From a virus, in IMG/VR virus record IMGVR_UViG_3300042554_001774, positions 27,021 to 91,020 of that record: 64,000 nucleotides of DNA. The stretch is one strand, 5' to 3'. Positions 40,894-61,007 of this stretch are shown one piece after another. The notes under the pieces were generated by a model. That model had not been told where the DNA came from, made no database searches, and saw only the letters and a program-made list of their open reading frames with translations. The number at the start of each line of letters is the position of its first letter. Position 1 is the first letter of the stretch. The translations under genes and the position numbers were made by a program.

Positions 40894-42453
40894 CTAAACA
40901 TTAAAGAACTTTCGCAATCTCTCGTGACCGTATTGACCTTTCGTCTTCTCAATTATCTGCTTGACCGTGTACTCCTTTCTCTCATGCCCTGCGGACTCGA
41001 CGAACATTTGGCAGCCCATCGAGCAGGCCCCGGTAACTGACCTGTACAACTGAACGCACTTCTCGAACGGCAGCTTGTCGGTTAGCTTCAGGCCCTTGAA
41101 CTCACTGGTGTCCCTCGGTGATAACTTGTAGGCCAGGGACTCACGCGCTTTCTCGATGGTCTCTCCGTGAGAATAGTTCTCCCCGTCTGTTACGAGATAC
41201 GAAACCTTGCCGTCGATCTGGCGTAGTTTGCGAATACCAAACTTCTCGCTTATGACTTCCGAGAAGACACCATCAACCTTGATGTACTTGCCGTTCTGCC
41301 AAGACAGGAGTCGAACATCGCTTCCTATATGGCGACTGTCGCCCTGCAGGTGTAGGTCTCCACCAACCGTAGGATTAAATCCTTCCGGCAGGCTGGTAAC
41401 ACTCCGCAGATATAGGTTTCCACCAACCGTAGGATTGAATCCTTCCGGCAGGCTGATAACCCTCGACAGGTATAGGTCTCCACCAACCGTAGGATTAAAT
41501 CCTTCCGGCAGGCTGGTAACACTCCGCAGGTCGAGGTATCCACCAACCGTAGGATTGAATCCTTCCGGCAGGCTGGTAACACTCCGCAGGTCGAGGTCTC
41601 CACCAACCGTAGGATTGAATCCTTCCGGCAGGCTGGTAACACTCGACAGGTGTAGGTCTCCACCAACCGTAGGATTAAATCCTTCCGGCAGGCTGGTAAC
41701 GCTGTGCAGGCAAAGGCTTCTACCAACCGTAGGATTGAATCCTTCCGGCAGGCTGGTAACACTCCGCAGATATAGGTTTCCACCAACCGTAGGATTGAAT
41801 CCTTCCGGCAGGCTGATAACCCTCGACAGGTATAGGTCTCCACCAACCGTAGGATTAAATCCTTCCGGCAGGCTGGTAACGCTGTGCAGGTAAAGGCTTC
41901 TACAAACCGTAGGATTAAATCCTTCCGGCAGGCTGGTAACACTCCGCAGGTCGAGGTATCCACCAACCGTAGGATTGAATCCTTCCGGCAGGCTGGTAAC
42001 ACTCCGCAGGTCGAGGTCTCCACCAACCGTAGGATTGAATCCTTCCGGCAGGCTGGTAACACTCGACAGGTATAGGTCTCCACCAACCGTAGGATTAAAT
42101 CCTTCCGGCAGGCTGGTAACACTCCGCAGGTCGAGGTCTCCACCAACCGTAGGATTGAATCCTTCCGGCAGGCTGGTAACGCTGTGCAGGTAAAGGCTTC
42201 TACCAACCGTAGGATTGAATCCTTCCGGCAGGCTGGTAACACTCCGCAGGTCGAGGTATCCACCAACCGCAGGACTGAATCCTTCCGGCAGGCTGGTAGC
42301 ACTCCGCAGGTCGAGGTCTCCACCAACCGTAGGATTGAATCCTTCCGGCAGGCTGATAACCCTCGACAGGTATAGGTCTCCACCAATGGGCTGCCTCCCG
42401 TCGAACTGCTCGTCAGTAATATTGAATTTCTTGCAAAACTCTTTTCGATTCAT
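40894..42453 (-). CDS. Leucine-rich-like repeat protein with 17-18 near-identical 20-residue repeats
   Basis: 519 residues. After MNRKEFCKKFNITDEQF come 17-18 copies of a 20-residue unit, LPEGFNPTVGGDLDL then RSVTS, predicting a beta-solenoid. The DNA is a perfect 60-bp tandem array (41343-42402) with variation mostly in the Leu-x-Leu part (DLYL, YLDL, SLYL, DLHL). The C-terminal 150 residues (LKLTDKLPFEKCVQLYRSVT, MFVESAGHERKEYTVKQI) form a separate domain. I recall similar repeats in other phage proteins of unknown role. Confidence 0.8.
   Translation of the reverse strand: MNRKEFCKKFNITDEQFDGRQPIGGDLYLSRVISLPEGFNPTVGGDLDLRSATSLPEGFSPAVGGYLDLRSVTSLPEGFNPTVGRSLYLHSVTSLPEGFNPTVGGDLDLRSVTSLPEGFNPTVGGDLYLSSVTSLPEGFNPTVGGDLDLRSVTSLPEGFNPTVGGYLDLRSVTSLPEGFNPTVCRSLYLHSVTSLPEGFNPTVGGDLYLSRVISLPEGFNPTVGGNLYLRSVTSLPEGFNPTVGRSLCLHSVTSLPEGFNPTVGGDLHLSSVTSLPEGFNPTVGGDLDLRSVTSLPEGFNPTVGGYLDLRSVTSLPEGFNPTVGGDLYLSRVISLPEGFNPTVGGNLYLRSVTSLPEGFNPTVGGDLHLQGDSRHIGSDVRLLSWQNGKYIKVDGVFSEVISEKFGIRKLRQIDGKVSYLVTDGENYSHGETIEKARESLAYKLSPRDTSEFKGLKLTDKLPFEKCVQLYRSVTGACSMGCQMFVESAGHERKEYTVKQIIEKTKGQYGHERLRKFFNV
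41343..42402 (-). repeat. 60-bp tandem repeat array
   Basis: About 17 copies, period exactly 60 bp, within the repeat-protein gene. Copies differ by few bases, so recent expansion or gene conversion is likely. A second minus-strand frame and plus-strand frames are also open through the array because 60 is divisible by 3; these are shadows. Confidence 0.9.
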
Positions 42454-43027: not shown

Positions 43028-43680
43028 ATTCGCTTCCCTTCTTCTGTAAATTCGTATTCGTTGCAAACGATATTCTCAGCAACATTCTCGTCACCCATCA
43101 AGTAGTCGTACTCCCTCTCAAGGCTCTTGTACAACCAGTGCGCAAGGTCTCGGAAGAGATCAAGCAAGTCGTCTTCGACGGTTGGCTCAGTGATATCCTT
43201 GCCGTCCCGCCCTTCTATGTAGTCAACGCTCATCGTGTACGCATGAACGCCCCTGCCACCCTGACTCACTCGGGCTGCCAGTTGATACATGTATGGCTTC
43301 TGTATCAACTGTAGCCCTTCGCCTATCCGCAGCAACTCCTTGTCATTGCAGTACGCGAGGAGATTCTTCTTCCAGCCAGGCGAGTACTCATAATCACCGC
43401 ACCAGGATGCTCCATCACCCTGCGAGCAGAAGCCGCTAAAGTAAATCACTGGCTCGTACACAGGTATCTTAGCGCCGTCTTTTCCGAGACGGTAAGTGCA
43501 GCTTGTTCTTTCGCTCAGGGTGATACCGAGTATCTTCGTGATCGCAATGAAGTCATCGAAGATGCAATCCCACCACTCGTCGTATGGGTAATCCCCCCCT
43601 CGATACCAGTCGCGAGCATTGGCTTTTGCTGAATCGCTAAGCTCCTCGTAGGTGTAGACCTTCGTCTCAATCGTTCGCAT
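43024..43680 (-). CDS. Antitoxin-like phage protein (SGFCSQGDGASW motif)
   Basis: 218 residues from ATG 43680 (GGAGG upstream). YTYEELSDSAKANARDWYRG and VIYFSGFCSQGDGASWCGDY are marks of a phage family I recall as annotated 'antitoxin of toxin-antitoxin stability system'; actual function unknown. Confidence 0.65.
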   Translation of the reverse strand: MRTIETKVYTYEELSDSAKANARDWYRGGDYPYDEWWDCIFDDFIAITKILGITLSERTSCTYRLGKDGAKIPVYEPVIYFSGFCSQGDGASWCGDYEYSPGWKKNLLAYCNDKELLRIGEGLQLIQKPYMYQLAARVSQGGRGVHAYTMSVDYIEGRDGKDITEPTVEDDLLDLFRDLAHWLYKSLEREYDYLMGDENVAENIVCNEYEFTEEGKRI

Positions 43681-52100: not shown

Positions 52101-52367
52101 TCAATCCCCAATCGGAAGTCTGGTAGTGCCGAATTCGGCGAATCCAACAAACGTATAGTTCGCCAAGGCTTTCACGCTATCGCTCCACTTCCGGCCATCC
52201 ACGCCCAGGTCGTTCAGAATGTCCAAGAACACTTCGGCAGTCGCGCCGTAGTGACGATGCGTCTCAGCGTATGCCTCCCAGTAGAGGTTGCCAATCGCAT
52301 CAAAGCCGACTAGCACTTCAACTGGGCGGATATAATCCGGGTGTTCACACAGATACTTAGCAGCCAT
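52101..52367 (-). CDS. Hypothetical protein
   Basis: 88 residues. LCEHPDYIRPVEVLVGFDAI then helical, ending in an IGD. Unrecognised. Confidence 0.5.
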   Translation of the reverse strand: MAAKYLCEHPDYIRPVEVLVGFDAIGNLYWEAYAETHRHYGATAEVFLDILNDLGVDGRKWSDSVKALANYTFVGFAEFGTTRLPIGD

Positions 52368-52497
52368 TTCGATTCCCCTTTGTTTCTAACCGTCTCAAAA
52401 AAGACGGCTTGCACCAATTACGGATTTTCTCCGTGGTGCTTTTGGTCCAATTGAGACAATGGAAACAAGTGAAACTTGCTTCCCCTACGCAACAAAC

Positions 52498-52558
52498 GTA
52501 GGCTAACGAATCCCGTAGGATACATTAGCCTACGCCGCCCCCCTAGTTTGAGGGGCGG
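52498..52558 (-). terminator. Two strong hairpins after the 52.6 kb gene
   Basis: Arms GTAGGCTAACGAATCC / GGATACATTAGCCTAC (near-perfect) at 52498-52533 and CCGCCCC / GGGGCGG at 52535-52558. On the minus strand they follow the stop at 52581 and could end or process that transcript; no U-run is present. Confidence 0.5.
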
Positions 52559-52580
52559 AGAAGGTTATATGGCAAGTCGA

Positions 52581-53387
52581 TTAGGCGACTTCAGCGGTTT
52601 GCTTGGCCATTGCCTCATCGTACTGCTGTTGAGCGCTTTCCATAGCCTCAGGCTTGAGAACGGTCTCAATCCAGCTAGACTTCTCGTGCAGGGCTTGTGC
52701 TACAACGATGTCCAGAACCCGCCCAAACCCTAACCCTTCTGCCAGCCAGTCGGCAATCAAGCTATACTTCTCATCATCGCTCAGGGTCTTTCCTGGTTCT
52801 ACGCTGGTCGCTTGGACGTTGACCGTCTTTTCTGAGACGGTTTCGGCCTTTGGCGCACCCTTGGCGCTCTTGGTTTTCTTGGGCTTAGCTTCCCCGTAGC
52901 CATTGCCGATCCATAGGGTGTTCATGAAGGCATTTAACTTGCTTGCGGCTTCACTCAATTCCCATTGGATGTTCCAGGCTTGGTCGCGCTTGTCTACTTC
53001 CTTGCGCATTGTAGCCAAGAGCTTAGATACCAAGTCATAGACTGAACCCTCTTTGTTTTTCTGGTATAGTCCAACGTTGGCATTGGACAATTCCACAAAA
53101 GCGTCTGGCCCTTCGATGCCCTTGGCTGCCTTCAGTTTGGGCAATTCGTTGGCGCACTTCGTGAATGCCGTAGCAAAATCCGGACAACTCAGGAAGTATT
53201 CCCCACAGATCCTTGCAAAGATAACGTCCTTGGATTCCCCCAAATGGTTACCTTGCTTGAAGCTTTCCAAGATGAAGGGTTCCAATTGCCTTAGCAATTC
53301 AATCTTCTTGCCCTTCCTGATTGCCCCTGCGACTTGATCGGCGGCGGCGATTCGGAATTCGTCACGGATTGCATTTTCCATAGTCAT
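52581..53387 (-). CDS. Hypothetical protein
   Basis: 268 residues from ATG 53387 (GGAG eight bases upstream). Helical first part (IRDEFRIAAADQVAGAIRKG), a Lys/Pro/Thr-rich linker (about 180-205), then LIADWLAEGLGFGRVLDIVV. Contains a hairpin copy in frame. Unrecognised; abundant helix may bind nucleic acid. Confidence 0.55.
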   Translation of the reverse strand: MTMENAIRDEFRIAAADQVAGAIRKGKKIELLRQLEPFILESFKQGNHLGESKDVIFARICGEYFLSCPDFATAFTKCANELPKLKAAKGIEGPDAFVELSNANVGLYQKNKEGSVYDLVSKLLATMRKEVDKRDQAWNIQWELSEAASKLNAFMNTLWIGNGYGEAKPKKTKSAKGAPKAETVSEKTVNVQATSVEPGKTLSDDEKYSLIADWLAEGLGFGRVLDIVVAQALHEKSSWIETVLKPEAMESAQQQYDEAMAKQTAEVA

Positions 53388-53485
53388 AGCACATTCTCCC
53401 AAAAACAATTGTTTGACATAGTCTTACACTAGGCAACATGCCTAATGCTCTATGCTCTTGAGTAACCCAGTTACCTAGGCTACTT

Positions 53486-53515
53486 AAAAGCATCCGTCTT
53501 AAAAAAGACGGATGC
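53486..53515 (-). terminator. Rho-independent terminator of the structured RNA
   Basis: GCATCCGTCTT / AAGACGGATGC, 11-bp stem with TTTT loop, followed by TTTT. Its core is a copy of the CCGTCTC hairpin family. Confidence 0.8.
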
Positions 53516-54270
53516 CAAACAATGTAGAATATAACCCAATAGCATGAATGGCAGCTCTACATGAAACCGCCATCGCAGACCATCACGCCGCTATTGTGAC
53601 TCGGCGCGATCCGGGGAGCTGCTATGCCTCTCCCGTTTTACTTCAAGCATTCCGTCAACTGTTATTCACCCCCCTGAATTGTGGCCTTTACCCTTGAATC
53701 CCTAGCTTCTCGCAATTGTAGGGAACGCAGCACACTACTACTTTTGACCCGTTCAGGGTTACAAGTAACCCGTCATCCCGTCATGCCTCAGTATGCCACT
53801 TTGGCGACCATTCCAGGAAAGCGCAATCTCTGTACTGACCCGAAGTGATTGATAGGGTACAACATATCCCCTATGTCCGAATTAGTCTCCCAATTCGCTT
53901 TTGTGCTAGAGCGCCTGTAAACTTGCGATAACACTTCCAACAATTCGATTCGTTATGCCATATCGTTTCTTTATGTCGCCACCAGCGACCCGTAGTAAGC
54001 TTGCCCCATAGAAACACCTATGGGGTTACCGCATCGCTAGGCAAAGCTTGCTTTATGTCCTGCGGTTATTCGGACAGACAGGTTTATCCCCCTATCGGGC
54101 GACAAGTTGCTAGCAAGACTAGCTTTGTGTCCCCTTGTCATTGGGACAACCTAGCATCAATCGGAACTATTCGTTCTCTTGATGCTAGGTGTCAGCAGTG
54201 CAAACTACTGACACAATAGCATCACGTGGAACAAGTGAAACAAGGGTTTCGGTTGTCATCTCAAAAAAGA
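53486..54270 (-). ncRNA. Candidate large structured phage RNA (about 0.8 kb)
   Basis: No convincing gene, yet hairpin follows hairpin on the minus strand: 54189-54214 (GTGTCAG/CTGACAC), directly adjacent 54151-54188 (CTAGCATCAA/TTGATGCTAG, 10 bp), 54128-54148, 54056-54076, 53975-53989, 54004-54025 (CCCCATAG/CTATGGGG), GGGTTAC/GTAACCC near 53757-53771, and more. Three of them end in GACA(T/C)AAAG. The left end is an intrinsic terminator (53490). A weak TATACA -10 lies near 54282. Recalls the phage-borne GOLLD and ROOL RNAs in size and setting; no homology is claimed. Confidence 0.6.
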
Positions 54271-54568
54271 CGGCCTATGGCGTGTATAAGAATTAAGGCG
54301 AAAAATGCTTTTCAATGTGCTAATGGGGCGAATTTTCACATTAACTTTCAGTTTTGAGCGTCGTAAGTGCTTATTTGACAAGGGGTTACGAAAATCAGCC
54401 AGGTGATAAAGGGGTGGGACGGACCATTTGTCTTGTAGATATATATTGGTACAGCCCCAAAAATTTTTCACGATTTTCAAACTCCAATTCCCCTCTTTTA
54501 GTGGAGCATGCGAATCAAACGAATCAGGATTGGGCTAGAATCGACGCTGATCGAGCCTTGACTCTTTA

Positions 54569-54819
54569 CACCTAATCACCCTCAAGTCGCTTCCTGACGC
54601 GAGTTAGGGGCCTTCTTGAGCGTTTGATGCGACCTGAGGGTCTTGAAGGTGCGAAGTAGGTGGAAGCACCAATTGCCCCTTTCAACGCTTTACGGGGCAA
54701 TCTGATGCGTTTTAGGGCATCTATAGCCCCACGAGCGTCTTGTGGGGTGTTAGGTACGGTGAGGAAGACGGTGATTCGGTGGTGAAGGTGCGGAATGGGT
54801 GGAAGTACCAATTGCCCCT
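54569..54819. other. Second hairpin cluster with a duplicated 36-bp hairpin unit
   Basis: Outer pair ACCTAA/TTAGGT; stem 54578-54590 with 54629-54641 (ACCCTCAAGTCGC / GCGACCTGAGGGT); then hairpin GGTGC/GCACC, ATTGCCCC/GGGGCAAT, GATGC/GCATC and CCCCAC/GTGGGG in a row. The unit GAAGGTGCG..CCCCT occurs at 54645-54680 and again at 54784-54819 with four differences, one of which keeps pairing (GC to GU). Confidence 0.6.
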
Positions 54820-55455
54820 AGCGCATTTGATACTGATCCCTGGTGTCCTTCTTGCGTTCCCTAGGGTTCCTTCCTGCCTTTCTTCACGGGATGCCTCTTC
54901 CCTTCTGCTCCTATTGCTTCGCTTACCCCTTGAGAGGCTATTGCTTGGCTATTGCCTCTTTATGGGGCTTGTTGAAGCAACTTGGAGCTATTAGTTATAT
55001 GTTGCACCTTATTTCAAATGTGTACCATTATTTTGAAAGTCAATGAGGGAATCATATACTGTTGCGCGTTTATGTCTCTATGTAGTTTCTAAGCAGGCCG
55101 CCCAGGGAGGAGGCAACCAAGAAGGGGCCTGGTTCACGCTGCTTTATGTCTCAAATGACCTATTTTAGATCTCAACTGACCACAAAAGAGACGGAAAGCA
55201 GCCATTCAAACCCTTAATGGCTCGCTGGACGCCCTTATGTACCCCTAGAACGGCTTGAGACCCGATTAGTGCATGGAATCTTGCCATTAAGGTATCTGAA
55301 ATAGACCCTAAATACACCAACAACTGGGTTGCCGAGTAGATTTTATGGCGTTTTTCGCCAGAAAGAGCATCGAGGGACTTGCCATATACCGGAAGGTCGC
55401 TAAGATTGGTGTGAATTGGGGTTTCAGGAGTCTATTTAGCTTGGAGGCAGCACAG
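54820..55455. other. Intergenic stretch before the rightward operon
   Basis: Pyrimidine-rich 54840-54960 ends in a hairpin AGAGGC/GCCTCT (54932-54960) with a short T-run on the plus strand. No gene with a credible start is seen. The promoter of the rightward operon is at its right end. Confidence 0.4.
55379..55406 (+). promoter_or_regulatory. Rightward promoter with ACTTGCCATATACC motif
   Basis: TTGCCA (55379-55384), 16 bases, TAAGAT (55401-55406). Only plus-strand copy of the motif that acts as a promoter; it supports the ATG at 55456 over one at 55345. Confidence 0.6.
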
Positions 55456-57507: not shown

Positions 57508-57722
57508 CTCTTCTTGACACTAAACAAGTCCACCAGATCACAGGTTGGTCCCTAGACAAGATCCGCTCACTCATACGATCCGGTAGACTCCCCGCTGTCA
57601 ATACGAGTTCAGGGAGGCGTCCTACGTTCTCCATACGACGCGATGACCTTGATCGGCTCATAACACCAACCGAGCCTAAGTCGCACAGAAGAACGCGACA
57701 GAGGGCTCCTAAGGTGTTTTAA
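57504..57722 (+). CDS. xis: Excisionase-like helix-turn-helix protein
   Basis: 72 residues from ATG 57504. LLDTKQVHQITGWSLDKIRS then IRSGRLPAVNTSSGRRPTF is the HTH_17/Xis pattern; basic C-terminus. Converges on the integrase, the usual partner, with which it shares the hairp­in at their stops. Confidence 0.7.
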   Translation: MTLLDTKQVHQITGWSLDKIRSLIRSGRLPAVNTSSGRRPTFSIRRDDLDRLITPTEPKSHRRTRQRAPKVF

Positions 57723-57728
57723 GGAGCC
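57704..57728. terminator. Hairpin shared by converging xis and int stop codons
   Basis: GGCTCCT / AGGAGCC with an 11-base loop contains both stop codons. Could end transcription from both sides. Confidence 0.6.
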
Positions 57729-58827
57729 ATGATCGAATGTGCAGACAGACCTTCTTGATTCTCTCATCGCTAACCTGTCTGTACCTTGAGGACATATCCG
57801 ATGCACTTGGGGTATGCCCCATACAGAACGAGACAGCGGGGAAGTCCATTGTCTCGTCTCCTACGGTCTGAAATGTCCTGCGTAGGTCATAGAACGAGCC
57901 TTTCTTGAGCTTAGCGGCGATACGAGCCTTTCGAAACATTTGCGTCCCTGCGTCTTGTGAGTCATGTTGCCACGGAGTGCCATGCGAAGTTAGCAATGCG
58001 GCACTTAAGTGGCTTGACTCTTTTCGACGCGAAATGGACGCCTTGATGGCCTTGATTGTTTCCGGCCAGAGATAGATTCTCCTTGGGGTGCCGGTTTTAT
58101 TTCTAGGGCAGTTGAGCCACGGGAGATCCTCTAGCTGATCTAGTGTTATCCTTGAGATGTCACCTACTCCCATTCCTCCGTTGATACCTAAGTACACTAC
58201 TGGTAAGAAGTACACATTGCATTTGGATAGGATGGATCTGATGTGGCTTGCGGGGAGCGGCCCAGAGGAGGATTGATGCCTTTCGAGGCGAGTGATCCTT
58301 GAGCTGAACTCAGACAATGCGCAGCCTGGTTCCGCTGGCGGGAGGTACTTTGAGTTCCTAAGCCAGTTTAGAAACGCCTTGATTCGGCGGATGTCACCAT
58401 TGACTGTAACATGCGATCTCTTCTGCACCGCGCCGCGACCACCAGTTCCCTTCTTTCGAGAGACCGGCTCCAAGAGCTTCACCTTGATTCTCTGATAAGC
58501 ATCCTGATTCCAACTCGCTGGGTCGCTGGTCCTCCCCATAACACCACATAGCCGCACAAGAGTCTTCTTGACCTCTTGAAGCGACCTGTCGCTAAACTCA
58601 CCTATTGCGACCTGTTGCTTCTTATGGTCATAGTACAGATCGGCAAGTTCATGCAGAGGAAGGTCCGGTGAGTCATCTATCTTCCCGAGGCCAGCGCGAA
58701 GATTCTCTTTGGACTTCGAATAGGACAAGAGAGCCTTCTCGAGGTCTGTACCGAAGTAGTAAAACTTGCCATTGATCTTTTTGCACCACTGGCCGCTGGT
58801 GTGCCTGCAAAGCGGTAAGTCTCCCAT
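57709..58827 (-). CDS. int: Tyrosine integrase
   Basis: 372 residues. Core-binding domain (about 60-180), catalytic core with PVVYLGINGGMGVGDISRITL (first Arg position here occupied by Gly/Asp, unusual), a later FYDLRRTFQTVGDETMDF (H/R-x-x-R), and the C-terminal FCMGHTPSASDMSSRYRQ with the tyrosine. Integrates the phage at the tRNA-type site beside it. ATG 58827. Confidence 0.85.
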   Translation of the reverse strand: MGDLPLCRHTSGQWCKKINGKFYYFGTDLEKALLSYSKSKENLRAGLGKIDDSPDLPLHELADLYYDHKKQQVAIGEFSDRSLQEVKKTLVRLCGVMGRTSDPASWNQDAYQRIKVKLLEPVSRKKGTGGRGAVQKRSHVTVNGDIRRIKAFLNWLRNSKYLPPAEPGCALSEFSSRITRLERHQSSSGPLPASHIRSILSKCNVYFLPVVYLGINGGMGVGDISRITLDQLEDLPWLNCPRNKTGTPRRIYLWPETIKAIKASISRRKESSHLSAALLTSHGTPWQHDSQDAGTQMFRKARIAAKLKKGSFYDLRRTFQTVGDETMDFPAVSFCMGHTPSASDMSSRYRQVSDERIKKVCLHIRSWLLKTP

Positions 58828-59000: not shown

Positions 59001-59044
<44 letters not shown>

Positions 59045-59057
59045 GATTTTTGAAGGG

Positions 59058-59080: not shown

Positions 59081-59455
59081 TCACCTTGGCTTGGCGTACA
59101 CGGCGCACCAGTAAAGCTTTCCGTTTTGGGAGTCGCGACACCCGAATCCGCATTCTGAGTAAGACTTATTGAGCATGTTTCTGCGATGCCCCAAAGAGCG
59201 ATACCACGCCTTTATGACATCCTCTTCGCTGCGGTATCCTGCAGCCACGTTTTCGGCTACCGCAAGGAATGAATACCCCTGGTCCTTAACGCGATCCGAT
59301 GGAGAGGAGAATTCCTTTCCCCTGTGAGACATTCGGCTCTTCTTGGCCATCCAGTCAGCGTGACCTTGGGCTGCCTTAGATAAGAGGTCGTCAAGCTCTA
59401 GCGGGCTTCCGCCGCGCAGATCGTTTGTTAGGTCAAGCAAAAGCTTCGGGTTCAA
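59081..59455 (-). CDS. CAP/SCP-domain protein
   Basis: 124 residues from TTG 59455 (AAGGA eight bases upstream). HADWMAKKSRMSHRG, VAENVAAGYRSEEDVIKAWY and GHRRNMLNKSYSECGFGC are the HNxxR, active-site His/Glu and GHYTQ-like marks of the CAP family. No signal peptide. Probably lysogenic cargo or a cell-wall-linked factor. Confidence 0.8.
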   Translation of the reverse strand: MNPKLLLDLTNDLRGGSPLELDDLLSKAAQGHADWMAKKSRMSHRGKEFSSPSDRVKDQGYSFLAVAENVAAGYRSEEDVIKAWYRSLGHRRNMLNKSYSECGFGCRDSQNGKLYWCAVYAKPR

Positions 59456-60188: not shown

Positions 60189-60226
60189 ATTAAATCTGCG
60201 CTGGCGCAGGTTATGCAGTAGTTATA
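60189..60226 (-). repeat. Dyad repeat element, copy 2
   Basis: Near copy of 22697-22734: TAAATCTGCGC, GGCGCAG and two ATAAC units, with the methyltransferase stop codon at its edge. Confidence 0.6.
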
Positions 60227-61007
60227 CGGATTCAATCAAACGTCGTCCAATCCACTCGGCGACTTGTGGCACGACTGCGTTTCCAACCAATCGCTCGGAA
60301 ACCCCATCAGCCACAACAGAAACTCTTTCGACGGGTTCATCGCTACCGAGAACGGAAATCCACCGATCAAACAAAGCACTTGCTTCAAACCTTTTTGTAC
60401 GACTCGCCCCGTTGACTGGTGGTAAAACCGCTGGTTCCAGTGTTCCGGCTTTGAACCATCTTTTTTCACAACGTCCATTTTCCATTGCGGTGGACGTGCG
60501 CACGGTGTCGGCAATAATGAACATCCTTTCCCGTAAGTGCGGGGCACCAATGGCGGCTGCGGGAATAATGTCCCATTCGCAAACGTACCCGATACCGGCC
60601 AACTGTTCGACGATCTCTCGCAATCCTCTTGTTCTGATCGCTGGGCTGTTTTCGATAACAACAATTCTTGGCTTGGCTTGTTTGACGACTCGGAAATACT
60701 CTGCCCATAAACCACTTCTGTCGTCGCTAAGTCCTTTGCCTTTTCCTGCAACGCTGATTCCTTGGCACGGGAATCCTCCACAAATAACATCAACTGATGT
60801 TGGCTCGAATGTTCTAATGTCGTCATGCTTGGGCACCTCCGGCCAATGCTTGTTTAATACCATCCGTGCATCTGGATCAATCTCGACTTGCCACGCACAC
60901 TTTAACCCCGCTCTGTCAAACCCAAGGTCAATACCACCGATGCCGGAAAACAAAGAACCGTATAGCAATTGATTGCATCGAAGCCCGCTATCAGGCGTTT
61001 TTGACAT
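60222..61007 (-). CDS. C5-cytosine DNA methyltransferase
   Basis: 261 residues, short for the family. Motif I LFSGIGGIDLGF, motif IV GGFPCQGIS (catalytic Cys), motif VI VIENSPAIRTRG, motif VIII HLRERMFII, motif X LVGNAVVPQVAEW. The target-recognition part is small. Shields phage DNA from restriction. A second frame overlaps its last 591 bases. Confidence 0.88.
   Translation of the reverse strand: MSKTPDSGLRCNQLLYGSLFSGIGGIDLGFDRAGLKCAWQVEIDPDARMVLNKHWPEVPKHDDIRTFEPTSVDVICGGFPCQGISVAGKGKGLSDDRSGLWAEYFRVVKQAKPRIVVIENSPAIRTRGLREIVEQLAGIGYVCEWDIIPAAAIGAPHLRERMFIIADTVRTSTAMENGRCEKRWFKAGTLEPAVLPPVNGASRTKRFEASALFDRWISVLGSDEPVERVSVVADGVSERLVGNAVVPQVAEWIGRRLIESV
60236..60826 (-). CDS. Overlapping second frame with methyltransferase-associated signature
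   Basis: 196 residues in another minus-strand frame, starting at ATG 60826 seven bases after GGAGGTG. Contains SWPVSGTFANGTLF, QPPLVPRTYGKGCSLLPTP and NPSKEFLLWLMGFPSDW, phrases I recall from proteins annotated beside phage methyltransferases. Either a true dual-coding gene or a by-product of conserved motifs. Confidence 0.55.
   Translation of the reverse strand: MTTLEHSSQHQLMLFVEDSRAKESALQEKAKDLATTEVVYGQSISESSNKPSQELLLSKTAQRSEQEDCERSSNSWPVSGTFANGTLFPQPPLVPRTYGKGCSLLPTPCARPPQWKMDVVKKDGSKPEHWNQRFYHQSTGRVVQKGLKQVLCLIGGFPFSVAMNPSKEFLLWLMGFPSDWLETQSCHKSPSGLDDV

Follow-up and report, generated by a model that had tools for sequence, protein, structure and literature searches.

A structured leader RNA candidate exchanged together with its neighbouring gene between two near-identical phages

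What is the role of a gene-free stretch of phage DNA, approximately 0.8 kb in length, whose transcript is predicted to fold strongly, and does it resemble the large structured RNAs of phages such as GOLLD and ROOL, with which an original prediction for this locus compared it as a possible new class? Our analyses suggest that the stretch may be a structured leader RNA of the phage that fits no described family, and that it is notable for being exchanged with the neighbouring gene. The window analysed here covers the final 64 kb of a virus record of 91 kb (IMGVR_UViG_3300042554_001774, called G000), and coordinates without a prefix are positions in this window.

The source is a temperate tailed phage by its gene content. 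Genes for a terminase, helicases, an exonuclease and a tyrosine integrase (57709-58827) are recognised in the record, along with a weak match to a major head protein. A tRNA 3'-end-like fragment that adjoins the integrase gene (59005-59045) is, as read from the sequence, a likely attachment site, and the region behind the integrase encodes a CAP-domain protein (59081-59455) as well as a short frame for a C-5 cytosine methylase (60222-61007). Leftward of about 53.4 kb, nearly all genes are on the minus strand. On its other side the stretch adjoins a gap without genes (54317-55345, about 1 kb), and past this gap the genes are oriented rightward. The stretch stands at the head of a leftward minus-strand operon, which is probably an early operon given the position of the stretch at its head. 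The longest open reading frame in 53486-54270 is just 72 amino acids and no protein-coding match was found there, in agreement with the original view that no convincing gene is present. We rejected a leader peptide encoded by a short frame at the 5' end of the leader (start codon ATG near 54259), since the related phage described below has ACG at this place. The adjoining gap, which is near-identical in the two phages, contains a repeat of 42 nt (54639/54778), a fourth copy of GACATAAAG and, between 54560 and 54720, strong hairpins (minus-strand z -6.2).

Scans with the terminase returned two records with an identical terminase, and helicase scans returned the same two. One of these stops at window position 43092, before the region of interest. 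The other, G001 (106.8 kb), matches G000 without a difference (100% identity) along roughly 40 kb, and in the rest of the window identity is about 98-99.8%. The three phage records are also near-identical around approximately 17 tandem 60-bp repeats (41346-42386, inside open reading frame 40894-42453), where the aligned repeat content differs among them. Both blastn and base-by-base comparison reveal that the window from 52599 to about 54316 is replaced in G001. The two records are 99-100% identical on either side of this block. The borders are sharp, with no differences in 52300-52598 or 54317-54900, and with eight scattered differences in 54244-54316 that give way to full divergence. The G001 block consists of a gene-free leader (L011:12478-13252) and a gene (L011:11606-12376). 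The main features of this region are as follows.

52599 to 54316, minus strand: exchange cassette of leader RNA and first gene, replaced as one block in G001
53486 to 54280, minus strand: candidate structured leader or non-coding RNA of about 0.79 kb (z -5.96), gene-free, with a counterpart of about 0.77 kb in G001
52581 to 53387, minus strand: first operon gene, within the cassette, encoding an orphan protein of 268 amino acids (256-amino-acid homologue in G001)
52501 to 52575, minus strand: two strong back-to-back hairpins right after the stop codon of the cassette gene, identical in both phages (window 52400-52559, minus-strand z -8.45)

As judged by comparison of the two genomes, the leader and the first operon gene form one exchangeable cassette with the same layout in both phages, and their joint replacement suggests that the two act together. 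The hairpins at 52501-52575 possibly mark the end of the transcription unit. No DNA similarity to the RNA region was found in phages and plasmids. Searches with DNA patterns for the leader, its flank and a recurrent hairpin described below matched only the sister record, apart from single chance matches to the hairpin.

The minus strand of 53486-54270 is predicted to fold with an energy of -297 kcal/mol, which corresponds to a z score of -5.96 relative to dinucleotide shuffles. The plus strand gives a nearly equal value (z -5.8), and folding therefore has no power to fix the strand; the bias between G-U and A-C pairs in stems, which can serve as a test for the RNA strand, was not informative. 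When the minus strand is divided, the 5' 280 nt (54000-54275) reach z -7.6 and the 3' end -8.1, whereas the middle of about 420 nt reaches only -2.6 (-0.6 on the plus strand). Among windows of 160 nt, 54000-54275 and 53440-53540 alone stand out from controls (mean z -0.65, sd 1.28), and 53520-53920 lies at a z of about 0. Thus, the 'unbroken chain of strong hairpins' that had been claimed does not extend through the middle of the stretch. The G001 leader also folds beyond shuffles (z -5.6, L011:12420-13250), and each allele folds most strongly toward its 5' and 3' termini. The stretch is non-coding and strongly folding, with structure at both ends and not throughout.

The transcript presumably begins near 54275-54280, and its 5' domain is assembled from the following elements.

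54257 to 54272, minus strand: CGUCUUUUUUGAGAUG, the first hairpin at the 5' end, which repeats the start hairpin seen across the operon (G001 counterpart CGUCUUUUCUAAGACG)
54210 to 54232, minus strand: X1, first copy of the direct repeat GUUCCNNNYGAUGYUAGGUUGUC (G001 copy at L011:13184-13211)
54171 to 54194, minus strand: X', complementary to X1 and X2 in mutually exclusive pairings, as indicated by duplex energies
54145 to 54167, minus strand: X2, second copy of the direct repeat, with GGUUGUC at its 3' end
54123 to 54148, minus strand: hairpin UGUCCC/GGGACA followed by CAAAG (in G001, UGUCGC/GCGACA followed by GAAAG)
54041 to 54076, minus strand: second copy of a 36-nt unit of hairpin, GACAYAAAG and hairpin (first copy at 54113-54148)

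Both leaders present the same order of elements, which runs from the CGUCUU... hairpin through GACAACC, a GAAAC/GUUUC hairpin, X1, a region that can pair with X1, and X2 ending in GGUUGUC, to a hairpin that terminates in GACANAAAG and then a further, small one. The second copy of the 36-nt unit was not found in G001. The X repeat occurs twice in the window versus 0.04 occurrences expected by chance. Because the X1/X2 motif is common to both alleles, at least this part of the leader is expected to be read by a shared factor rather than an allele-specific one. The GACAYAAAG motif occurs seven times in the 64-kb window versus 1.1 expected, and four minus-strand copies fall within 53969-55150 (at 53969, 54051, 54123 and 55142). 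The first three had been described as the ends of three hairpins, and each is indeed the 3' foot of a possible hairpin, but the third hairpin (53990-53969) is absent from the minimum-energy fold, in which its strand is paired elsewhere. The two hairpins reported to abut without a spacer do so in the minimum-energy fold (54149-54215), although a longer alternative hairpin competes with them.

A leader stretch complementary to flanking sequences on both sides is thus formed by X1, X' and X2 in G000, and in weaker form in G001. The predicted duplex energies for 30-nt segments of G000 are -28.8 kcal/mol for X':X1 and -25.6 kcal/mol for X':X2, and the corresponding G001 duplexes, which use neighbouring segments, are weaker (-18.8 and -16.1 kcal/mol). 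When the G000 leader is lengthened stepwise, the predicted co-transcriptional fold switches between the X1:X' and X':X2 states. The G001 leader keeps X1:X' at all lengths, which counts against a switch model. In addition, two pairings are available to the GGUUGUC at the 3' end of X2: with the 5' GACAACC, which closes a junction, or within the next hairpin.

Structure-aware alignment of the two 5' domains yields 45 shared pairs, among which nine are compensatory, three are one-sided and none is broken. However, when the differing letters were permuted and the alignment was refitted, the score of the true pair lay at z 1.1, and at least nine compensatory pairs were obtained in 46 of 80 trials. 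We do not count the 45-pair fold as covariation, because equally refitted randomised controls do as well. With an alignment based on sequence only, 12 of the 26 changed pairs still pair, and structural alignment of the leader bodies scores slightly above shuffles (z 2.4 for the minus strand and 2.0 for the plus strand). The original prediction had looked to covariation among homologues for confirmation, and the two known alleles do not rise above the null; covariation is not established, because two sequences are too few.

The 3' end of the leader carries a further element.

53490 to 53515, minus strand: terminator-like hairpin GCAUCCGUCUU/AAGACGGAUGC followed by UUUU, which holds the core of the operon-wide hairpin (in G001, GCAGCCCUUG/CAAGGGCUGC followed by UUU at the corresponding place)

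In both leaders the hairpin has at least 11 base pairs, is followed by U's and occupies the corresponding place, with different sequences. The G000 hairpin had been called a perfect intrinsic terminator. Its stem of 11 bp has no mismatch, but only four U's (UUUU) follow, a standard terminator scan does not list 53490-53515, and the core is that of a hairpin repeated through the operon. This inverted repeat, CGUCUYNNNNRAGACG with slight slack, is present in 17 copies on the minus strand between 40877 and 53510 and nowhere else in the record, whereas simulated sequence yields zero to four matches per window. Several near copies exist besides these 17. Some 13 copies precede a start codon at a distance of 11-26 nt, in most cases 11-15 nt, and many of them directly precede an AAGGRG-like ribosome-binding site; the hairpin is probably a phage-wide site of translation or transcription control. 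Its core recurs in the 3' terminator-like hairpin and, with one mismatch, in the first hairpin of the leader. Because the leader opens with the hairpin that marks the starts of operon genes, it is tied to the operon transcript. One copy resides within the coding sequence of the cassette gene, in the linker that joins its diverged part to its conserved part, and is kept at corresponding positions in the two alleles (52824-52839; L011:11834-11849).

The cassette protein and its G001 homologue are about 30% identical (E 7e-15), and the best conserved part is the last 65 residues. Pfam and PADLOC returned no match for the protein of either allele, and PHROGs returned none for the 268-residue protein of the window. 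Scans of viral and genome collections with the protein and with the two-row alignment, as well as tblastn in phages, recovered the sister record only. An AlphaFold model was unusable (pLDDT 38), and the one match in a profile search of solved structures, a cytochrome fusion, was spurious.

The layout of an inferred promoter, a leader with alternative pairings, a terminator-like hairpin, the first gene and the rest of the operon points to control of read-through. We tentatively favour, at somewhat less than even likelihood, a model in which the stretch is a switchable structured leader of about 0.79 kb for an early operon, forming one specificity cassette with the first gene and exerting control somewhat like that of P4 and P1. 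The leader would be transcribed on the minus strand from a promoter near 54285, where no convincing sigma-70 promoter was found, a result that speaks against the leader model, as do the short U tracts, the covariation result, the strand tests and the X motif shared by both alleles. The 5' domain would fold co-transcriptionally into either X1:X' or X':X2, with GGUUGUC engaging the 5' GACAACC or the next hairpin. Depending on the fold chosen, polymerase would either read through into the operon or stop at the 3' hairpin and release an RNA of about 0.79 kb. What sets the switch in trans might be the cassette protein or an RNA cut from the leader, in the manner of P4/P1-type control. An exchange of alleles would then change specificity, either for immunity or for escape from a host factor. 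A more far-reaching proposal, which we consider doubtful, is that this early-operon leader of about 0.8 kb represents a new RNA class that works only with the protein encoded next. Phages would exchange matched, diverged alleles of RNA and protein as one cassette and thereby alter their immunity type or evade a host factor.

Some of the same observations could be explained by a stand-alone large RNA, representing a new class of GOLLD/ROOL-like size that is freed by the 3' hairpin and acts alone or with the cassette protein. The length of about 0.79 kb, the lack of genes, the strong ends, the 3' hairpin with its U's and the similar length of the G001 counterpart all fit this explanation, for which an ICP1 transcript of about 800 nt provides a precedent (PMC7567579). 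We nevertheless judge it unlikely, given that the middle half hardly differs from shuffled DNA in its folding, that the two alleles offer no covariation support and little common fold in their bodies (z 2.4 minus, 2.0 plus), and that Rfam gives no match. At the other extreme, the region might have no special RNA function and be an ordinary regulatory gap that accumulates short hairpins such as start hairpins and terminators, with selection on the protein only driving the swap. Its unstructured middle and the covariation result would then be expected, and some of the folding signal of the 5' and 3' ends is accounted for by operon-wide hairpins. This explanation is quite improbable, because the 5' 280 nt beat all shuffles widely in both alleles, and because these two alleles, although diverged, have retained the layout of the repeats and their lengths.

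Alternatively, the functional entity could be DNA: a replication origin or operator cluster whose inverted repeats would be bound by the cassette protein. This protein would be an origin-binding initiator or a regulator that changes specificity along with the sites through its N-terminal part and keeps its C-terminal part. Both strands fold alike, the region has clusters of direct as well as inverted repeats, the sites are exchanged along with the protein, the last 65 residues of the protein are clearly more conserved, and the flank at 54317-55345 is likewise gene-free and repeat-rich. However, no iteron-type direct repeat array is present beside the gene, where repeats have two or three copies only, and Tandem Repeats Finder reports no tandem repeats in 53486-54270. 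The protein has no recognised DNA-binding or replication domain, the helicases and exonuclease are about 27 kb or more away, and the order of leader, hairpin and gene fits a transcript, so that a DNA element appears rather unlikely. The same order, together with the strong hairpins after the gene and the exchange as one unit, is also what would be seen for an RNA-protein pair like type III toxin-antitoxin systems, in which a structured RNA and a leaky terminator precede a toxin gene in an addiction or defence cassette. We regard such a pair as highly improbable. The RNA has no tandem repeats, no defence or toxin family is matched, and the very-low-confidence protein model is all-helical, unlike ToxN-type toxins. 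Known antitoxin RNAs are far shorter than 0.79 kb, which also counts against this reading.

Few natural RNAs are as poorly understood as the large RNAs of phages, most of which are without a known partner or phenotype. Near-identical phages that differ in one RNA-plus-protein block constitute a natural experiment that can be tested by swapping. If RNA and protein must match, the cassette would be a phage specificity module composed of a long RNA and its protein. If no match is needed, the leader would still be a tractable model for early-operon switching.

Comparison with known systems places the switchable leader among several partial parallels. GOLLD and ROOL RNAs are at least 0.6 kb in length, and proximity to tRNA genes is common but not obligatory for them. 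They are phage-borne, non-coding and strongly folded RNAs of up to 0.9 kb whose function is unknown and that often lie near tRNAs (PMC12286853). The leader resembles them in being phage-borne, of similar size, non-coding and strongly folded. It is unlike them in lacking an Rfam match and tRNAs, in its weakly folding middle and in its coupling to the downstream gene. No Rfam family was matched in the whole window at the gathering score, and searches at E values up to 10 gave three chance matches, none of which is to GOLLD, ROOL, OLE or HEARO, the four families suggested for checking; ARAGORN found no tRNA in the scanned parts of both records (about 190 kb together). Membership in these four families is not supported, and the likeness to GOLLD and ROOL in the original prediction was not borne out, whereas the structured, non-coding, RNA-like region of about 0.8 kb that it described was.

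The most abundant transcript of phage ICP1 is an RNA of about 800 nt that was seen by RNA-seq, comes from an ORF-less gap of about 1 kb adjoining the lysis cluster, and belongs to a phage without tRNAs (PMC7567579). By description, the leader is alike in size, in its ORF-less gap and in the lack of tRNAs. The two differ in that the ICP1 RNA was detected by RNA-seq near a lysis cluster, whereas ours is predicted from sequence and lies at the head of a probable early operon. Type III systems (ToxIN, CptIN, TenpIN) likewise join an RNA, a terminator-like hairpin and a protein gene in one exchangeable unit, but here the RNA is much longer and has no tandem repeats, and no toxin is recognisable (no ToxN, CptN or TenpN match for the protein of either allele in PADLOC or Pfam). 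The recurrent hairpin has its own parallel in the Start-Associated Sequences of cluster K mycobacteriophages, which are short repeats just upstream of many gene starts (PMC3203893). The placing is alike, whereas the sequence is GGGATAGGAGCCC in those unrelated phages and a palindromic hairpin upstream of the ribosome-binding site here.

The closest functional analogy for the proposed switch is offered by the leader RNAs of P4, P1, P7 and N15, which control immunity or antirepression. In P4, an RNA stretch is complementary to repeats on both sides, and a terminator-like hairpin lies before the first gene. Control of the P4 type also employs a small stable RNA that is cut from the leader and terminates operon transcription in trans. 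All four phages produce regulatory RNAs complementary to leader sequences (PMC7567579). The leader described here, at about 0.79 kb, is several times the length of these known RNAs and has no sequence relation to them. In P4-type systems immunity specificity lies in the complementary segment; here the leader is swapped between near-identical phages, and its main X motif is largely shared instead of differing. In common with P4 and phiR73 (CI RNA), P1 and P7 (c4) and N15, however, it combines an operon leader, a stretch complementary to two flanking repeats and a terminator-like hairpin before the first gene.
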